From contig JARVKA010000001.1 in NCBI GenBank assembly GCA_029775915.1, forward strand, positions 162,594-226,593: 64,000 bases of DNA. The letters run 5' to 3'. Below the pieces are notes generated by a model. The model searched no databases. It was not told the DNA's origin and saw only the letters and a program-made list of their open reading frames with translations. How positions within the stretch are numbered: the stretch's first letter is position 1; every line of letters starts with the position of its first letter. The position numbers and the translations under genes are program-made. Positions 11,125-11,773 of this stretch are shown here, piece after piece. The DNA comes from Nitrososphaeria archaeon (GTDB lineage Archaea; Thermoproteota; Nitrososphaeria; Nitrososphaerales; JANXEG01).

Positions 11125-11229
11125 TTACTCTTATATTTGGAATGGTTATAAAAAAATCTTACTTTAATAAAACCCCACTCCCTCCATTTAGTAAAGTATT
11201 TAAACATTTACATATTCACATAAAACTCA

Positions 11230-11283
11230 AGCGGGTGGTGGTCCTCCCACCGTTCCGCTATAAAAACCCCGGTTGGGAGGTGA
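11230..11283 (+). promoter_or_regulatory. Candidate preQ1/preQ0-class translational riboswitch upstream of queT
   Basis: The leader holds AGCGG (11230-11234) and its complement CCGCT (11255-11259), forming an outer stem. It is followed by ATAAAAAC (11260-11267), the same layout as the stem and A-rich tail of preQ1-I riboswitches. Inside the stem, GGTGG (11233 onward region) can pair with CCACC. The loop contains CCTCCCA (11243-11249), a perfect seven-base complement of TGGGAGG (11274-11280), which is the Shine-Dalgarno of the next gene. Ligand binding could thus decide whether the ribosome site is free. The structure is visible; the ligand is inferred from the downstream QueT transporter. Confidence 0.6.
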
Positions 11284-11290
11284 TTATAAT

Positions 11291-11773
11291 TTGAAAAGTA
11301 AGGATTTAGCACTTGTAGCACTTTTCACTAGCTTATATGTTGTAGCTGTGATTTTATTGGCTCCAATTAGCTTTGAAGTATTTCAAGTAAGAGTGGCTGA
11401 TATTTTAATGCCTTTATCCATCATTTTTGGTATGCCCGCAATTTTTGGATTAACGATTGGTGCATTTATAGCGAATTTTGCCAGCCCCTTCGGTATTATT
11501 GATGTGATAGGTGGGAGTGTAGCAAATTTTATAGCATCTTACACAGCTTGGATAATTGGTAGGAGAAATTTTAAAGGTTCATGGATTATCGCTATATTTG
11601 TAGAGAATTTAATCATAACTCTTATAGTCGGCACTTATCTTTCATACCTTCTCACATTGCCTCTTGTAGTAGGATGGTTTGGTATATTTCTTGGCTCATT
11701 AATCAGTATGAATATTGGAGGGTATTTATTATTAAAGGTCTTAAGAATTAGATTGATTCAAACCCATCCTTAA
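11291..11773 (+). CDS. queT: QueT-family transporter (queuosine/archaeosine precursor ECF S-component)
   Basis: QueT proteins are small membrane S-components of ECF transporters that import precursors of 7-deazaguanine tRNA bases. The sequence has the family block LAPISFEVFQVRVADI followed by the ASPFGIIDVIGGSVAN loop, and five to six hydrophobic helices. I set the start at TTG 11291, because a GGAGGTGAT ribosome site lies about ten bases upstream and the open frame's earlier TTG at 11273 falls inside that site. In archaea the likely substrate is preQ0 for archaeosine. No ECF ATPase or T-component is in the window, so it may share a common module. The structured leader described above lies directly upstream. 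Confidence 0.85.
   Translation: MKSKDLALVALFTSLYVVAVILLAPISFEVFQVRVADILMPLSIIFGMPAIFGLTIGAFIANFASPFGIIDVIGGSVANFIASYTAWIIGRRNFKGSWIIAIFVENLIITLIVGTYLSYLLTLPLVVGWFGIFLGSLISMNIGGYLLLKVLRIRLIQTHP

Follow-up and report, generated by a model that had tools for sequence, protein, structure and literature searches.

The leader of a queT gene from a Nitrososphaeria archaeon was found to contain a conserved RNA element, very probably an archaeal riboswitch not described before. The gene lies in the window, the whole stretch of 64,000 nucleotides that was analysed. Over its first ~55 nt, this mRNA is likely to form a riboswitch that turns translation off (an OFF switch) in response to preQ0 or a 7-deazaguanine very close to it. 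When the ligand is scarce, helix P1 would be kept, probably together with a small inner hairpin, the Shine-Dalgarno (SD) sequence would be free, and QueT would be made. When the ligand is plentiful, an H-type pseudoknot would be stabilised, with the CCUCCCACCG strand paired to CGGUUGGGAGG over the A-rich loop; the bound pseudoknot would bury the SD sequence and synthesis of the importer would stop. The sequence comparisons support the element itself, the helices P1 and P2, the location of the element at the mRNA 5' end and the link to preQ0 genes, while which ligand is bound, which way the switch turns and the alternative fold that the RNA adopts without ligand are what we infer from them.

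The open reading frame 3' of the leader encoded QueT (PF06177, 100.8 bits against a gathering cut-off of 33.7), and its start codon is most likely the TTG at 11291-11293, ten bases past GGAGG. The features of the locus were as follows.

11197-11204, + strand: TATA box TATTTAAA, 33 to 26 bases 5' of P1
11230-11234, + strand: P1 5' strand AGCGG, partner 11255-11259
11235-11242, + strand: loop L1 GTGGTGGT, conserved start GU(G/A)(A/G), which may also pair with CCAC (P1b)
11243-11252, + strand: P2 5' strand, anti-SD CCTCCCA plus CCG, complement of 11270-11280
11253-11254, + strand: loop L2, UU (UU or AU in most copies)
11255-11259, + strand: P1 3' strand CCGCT, partner 11230-11234
11260-11269, + strand: loop L3 ATAAAAACCC, A-rich, consensus n-AnAAAYCC
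11270-11280, + strand: P2 3' strand CGG-U-UGGGAGG, containing the SD sequence (GGGAGGTGA, 11275-11283)
11291-11773, + strand: queT, ECF transporter S component for queuosine/archaeosine precursors, most likely start TTG, PF06177

The first-pass annotation had described the stem AGCGG/CCGCT, the A-rich tail ATAAAAAC (11260-11267) and a loop CCTCCCA (11243-11249) exactly complementary to TGGGAGG (11274-11280), and reading the letters confirmed all three to the base. It had missed the pairing of CCG (11250-11252) with CGG (11270-11272), which brings P2 to about 10 pairs in total with a single bulged U at 11273. A rough energy estimate placed the two competing folds of the window near-isoenergetic; such level energies would suit a switch and are not proof of one. 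Anti-SD hairpins are common, and nested MFE folding of the window leader gave an ordinary stability (z = -0.92), both of which fit chance complementarity or an RNA thermometer. The case for the element rests on comparison.

The element lay directly 5' of queT in 14 of 16 queT loci of related genomes, which had been picked by protein family with no use of the motif, and the shared element spanned ~60 nt (RGCGG-GUGA-n-antiSD-CCG-WU-CCGCY-n-AnAAAYCC-CGG-n-SD). A pattern scan of GTDB contigs returned at least 118 loci, ~100 of them archaeal among the matches listed; those archaeal loci were mostly from Bathyarchaeota, Thaumarchaeota/Nitrososphaeria and Methanomethylicota, with one from Asgard. Eighteen bacterial loci among the matches listed had no 5' half, came to about the number estimated by chance, and were rejected. 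Two MAG contigs titled "bacterium" (L072 and L123) carried the archaeal element with queT and are probably archaeal bins under a misleading title. A covariance model with P1 as the sole structure was built from 41 sequences, and the window scored 59.6 bits with it (E about 1e-15); because the window was itself among the 41, it is the recurrence, and not this score, that counts as independent evidence. Of 398 Thermoproteota genomes the model reported 82, and ~79 of these were real after inspection. It also matched 11 of 228 Asgard genomes, where the element was present in all ten loci inspected and QueT was recognised by HMM in nine of them. Five weak matches in Thermoproteota (L216-L220, 18-22 bits) were discarded as chance, as were three in 200 Bacillota genomes (23-25 bits), which had no element. 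Among the matches listed from GTDB contigs and in the Thermoproteota, Asgard and Bacillota genomes searched with the model, archaeal genomes alone carried the element. The window element is thus not a chance occurrence, and it recurs before queT and que genes in two archaeal phyla.

The first-pass annotation had staked its proposal on covariation in homologous leaders, and both P1 and P2 were found to covary. In 69 sequences, P1 was 99.4% paired, three of its five pairs changed on both sides, and double-change cells numbered 15 compared with 1.2 in shuffles; the outer pair was seen as G-C, A-U, U-A and C-G. In the five Asgard copies L233, L235, L236, L237 and L238, P1 was lengthened to 6 bp and L2 had extra bases (CCG-UGCU-CCGC). 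The loops were also conserved: the GU of L1 and the AnAAA of L3 were each kept in 91 of the 91 copies found without a fixed pattern, and the base just 5' of the P1 3' strand was U in 190 of the 190 parsed copies, of which 99 had been chosen by a pattern with that U fixed and the other 91 had not. L3 was 10 nt long in 154 of the 190 copies and reached up to 21 nt in others.

For P2, each anti-SD strand was allowed its best duplex with the SD region of its own locus and with those of other loci, and the stabilities were compared. The own partner gave a mean of -11.7 kcal/mol, the swapped partners -9.6 kcal/mol; z was -9.3 at n = 83 and -6.2 among 32 copies that had diverged strongly, and none of 10,000 partner permutations was as stable; the permutation leaves some relatedness in, so these z values are guides and not probabilities. 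Three of the four controls, which used sequence from downstream, from upstream and from the other end of L1, were flat, and the reversed-strand control gave a weaker, intermediate signal (z = -3.4) because the two P2 strands track each other in base composition. P2 covaries strongly, and with it the leader can hide its own ribosome-binding site. The covariation could be read directly from copies with a changed SD, such as L005 (CAUCUC/GAGAUG), L014 (ACCUCG/CGAGGU) and L215 (GCUCCG/CGGAGC), and in Asgard L233 (CCUCGCA/UGCGAGG) and L237 (CCUCUCA/UGAGAGG). The inner hairpin P1b (GUGG/CCAC), a competitor of P2, showed weak covariation (z about -1.9, p about 0.03). Chance complementarity or an RNA thermometer is contradicted by the recurrence with the covariance model and by the covariation of P1 and P2, and the strict conservation of the loop bases GU, WU and AnAAAYCC and the gene-specific distribution leave this explanation with a negligible probability.

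Two departures from the common form of P2 were observed. Copies without a Shine-Dalgarno sequence occurred at L083:2428-2488 (the same place as L197) and at L034; in these copies P2 was nonetheless kept by a different sequence (UUUCCGAC/GUCGGAAA in L083), abutting the AUG, and an SD-less P2 that ends at the AUG suggests that access to the start codon is controlled. The CGG half of P2 was present in 187 of the 190 copies and missing in three. In L213, L214 and L215 the CGG was replaced (CCCCAAAA) and the anti-SD/SD helix covaried (GCUCCG/CGGAGC); in view of these variants the CCG may do something else as well, perhaps as part of the ligand pocket.

The element also held a fixed place relative to the promoter. 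An A-rich BRE at -40 to -36 and a TATA box at -34 to -27 (up to 92% A+T) stood at a fixed distance from P1 across 143 diverged copies, and a second A+T peak was found at -2 and -1 relative to P1. Because BRE and TATA keep this distance, the RNA probably starts at P1 or a few bases before it, and the element would make up the whole 5' leader; in the window, the position of the TATA box implies a putative transcription start at about 11225-11230. P1 is an inverted repeat in the DNA, as an operator for a transcription factor that overlaps the leader by coincidence would be. An operator is an extremely improbable explanation for an element that begins at the transcription start (TATA at about -30), is always on the coding strand, and has as its second helix an anti-SD strand that covaries with the SD beside the start codon.

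The genes under the leader pointed to one metabolite. A total of 198 loci with a match were tallied from the matches listed in the pattern-scan and covariance-model collections, in which some genomes occurred twice; 5 were chance and 193 were real. Without exception the 193 stood before one of four genes: queT in 176 (172 called by HMM, 4 picked out by eye in a different reading frame), queE in 5, queC in 1 and the gene of an uncharacterised membrane protein in 11. The arrays under the leader included queE-queC, queE-GAT-queC, queE then folE, queC-queT and queT-queC; these are preQ0 genes. Pfam and NCBIfam models supported the QueC, the GATase-QueC fusion and the GTP cyclohydrolase I of these arrays, whereas the QueE proteins scored best against QueE models yet fell under the curated cut-offs. 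In L010 and L066, QueT with the leader had no canonical in-frame start codon near the SD, for which a non-canonical start or an assembly error is possible. A conserved, structured leader, downstream genes of one metabolite and an SD sequence that can be masked, the features by which a translational riboswitch is recognised, were thus found together.

The uncharacterised membrane protein was ~240 residues long and multi-spanning, with the motif FIGGxGFIT...TMCELVTMNIGSISLL and no match above the Pfam gathering cut-offs. It was encoded at L135:1138-1869, L080:6865-7632, L047:5795-6541, L101:3678-4406, L189:567-1283, L098 and L194, and its gene was often followed by those of a small Cys-rich protein and a QueC-like protein. 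The family is a candidate new preQ0 transporter. A profile comparison with QueT gave one local match of 22 residues, and the AlphaFold model (mean pLDDT 50.6) was too poor to use.

The leader could instead be the binding site of a protein repressor, or a ribosome-stalling or attenuation element with no metabolite sensing, since a protein could contact its conserved single-stranded bases and ligand binding is deduced from the genes. This explanation is unlikely: the same sequence core is found in two archaeal phyla, one RNA stands before transport genes as well as synthesis genes for a single metabolite, much as known riboswitches do, and no repressor gene was seen in the arrays inspected. For a riboswitch, the OFF direction is proposed because the SD would be buried and importer or biosynthetic genes lie downstream, and preQ0 is proposed as the ligand because of the gene set and the absence of QueF from the window genome.

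In archaea, preQ0 is the base that TGT inserts en route to archaeosine. TGT was present in the window genome (G000, near-complete at 99%). A QueC search of this genome gave weak PP-loop-type matches alone (29.6 bits), a QueE query, run without a positive control, gave no match, and no QueF was found. As TGT is present with no convincing QueC, QueE or QueF, the organism probably imports preQ0 and would be a preQ0 auxotroph. The relatives G001, G012 and G035 likewise had queT with the motif and no convincing QueC.

The covariance-model search for preQ1-I, preQ1-II and preQ1-III that the first-pass annotation had proposed found no match. No Rfam family, these three included, matched the window even at E <= 10; a scan of six relatives gave nothing relevant, with none of the three classes at E <= 0.5; and the preQ1-I model (RF00522) did not pass its cut-off of 39 bits in any of 20 genomes that carry the motif, the best score being 19.9. 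The preQ1-II (RF01054) and preQ1-III (RF02680) classes have the ligand family, the gene class and SD control in common with the element, and their extra helices are absent from it. The likeness to preQ1-I is closer. Both have an H-type pseudoknot, in our element supported by covariation, in the same order: a 5-bp P1, L1, P2, a short L2, and an A-rich L3 that leads to the SD as the P2 3' strand; both precede queT or other preQ0/preQ1 genes, which preQ1-I controls and the archaeal element would control. The nearest type is type III, whose A-rich tail also varies in length and whose SD, AAGG, is buried (PMC11625349, PMC10622847). On these grounds the element could be a diverged true preQ1-I riboswitch that keeps the same pocket and senses preQ1. 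In preQ1-I, the specificity cytosine stands as UC or AC directly before the P1 3' strand (PMC11625349), and a C-to-U change in the E. coli type III riboswitch weakened the response about 311-fold (PMC10622847). Unlike preQ1-I, the archaeal element has UU or AU there, with the invariant U in place of the C that reads preQ1; its L1 starts with GUGA and not UU, its P2 of ~10 bp contains a full anti-SD, and it has an AnAAAYCC-CGG block and archaeal hosts. The window genome, moreover, has no QueF to make preQ1. A diverged preQ1-I riboswitch is therefore improbable on the covariance-model scores, the U and the absence of QueF. Since two tests for preQ1-I failed, the covariance model and the cytosine, the element was not filed as preQ1-I and is a candidate new class. 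The proposal of a preQ1-I-like device that would sense preQ0 or archaeosine precursors is supported by the covariation and by the links to que genes and folE. Membership in a known preQ1 class is not, given the missing Rfam match and the U for the specificity C. Other archaeal riboswitches such as the crcB RNAs (PMC2864571) are unrelated to the element in sequence, structure and genes.

On balance we favour a new class, so far restricted to archaea and common to Thermoproteota and Asgard, with preQ0 and not preQ1 as its natural ligand and a pocket without the preQ1-I cytosine. To our knowledge, archaea have so far yielded few classes of riboswitch. The literature searched, with subscription papers mostly outside its scope, contained no account of a preQ0/preQ1 riboswitch in archaea, and a 2024 review of preQ1 riboswitches did not mention archaea. 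If our reading is correct, a widespread archaea-restricted riboswitch class would exist, which either had an origin separate from that of the bacterial preQ1 classes or split from one of them very early. SD-masking translational riboswitches would then operate in archaea, and the supply of archaeosine precursors would be under RNA regulation. The element would also serve as a marker for missing preQ0 transporters, with one uncharacterised membrane-protein family already found by it.
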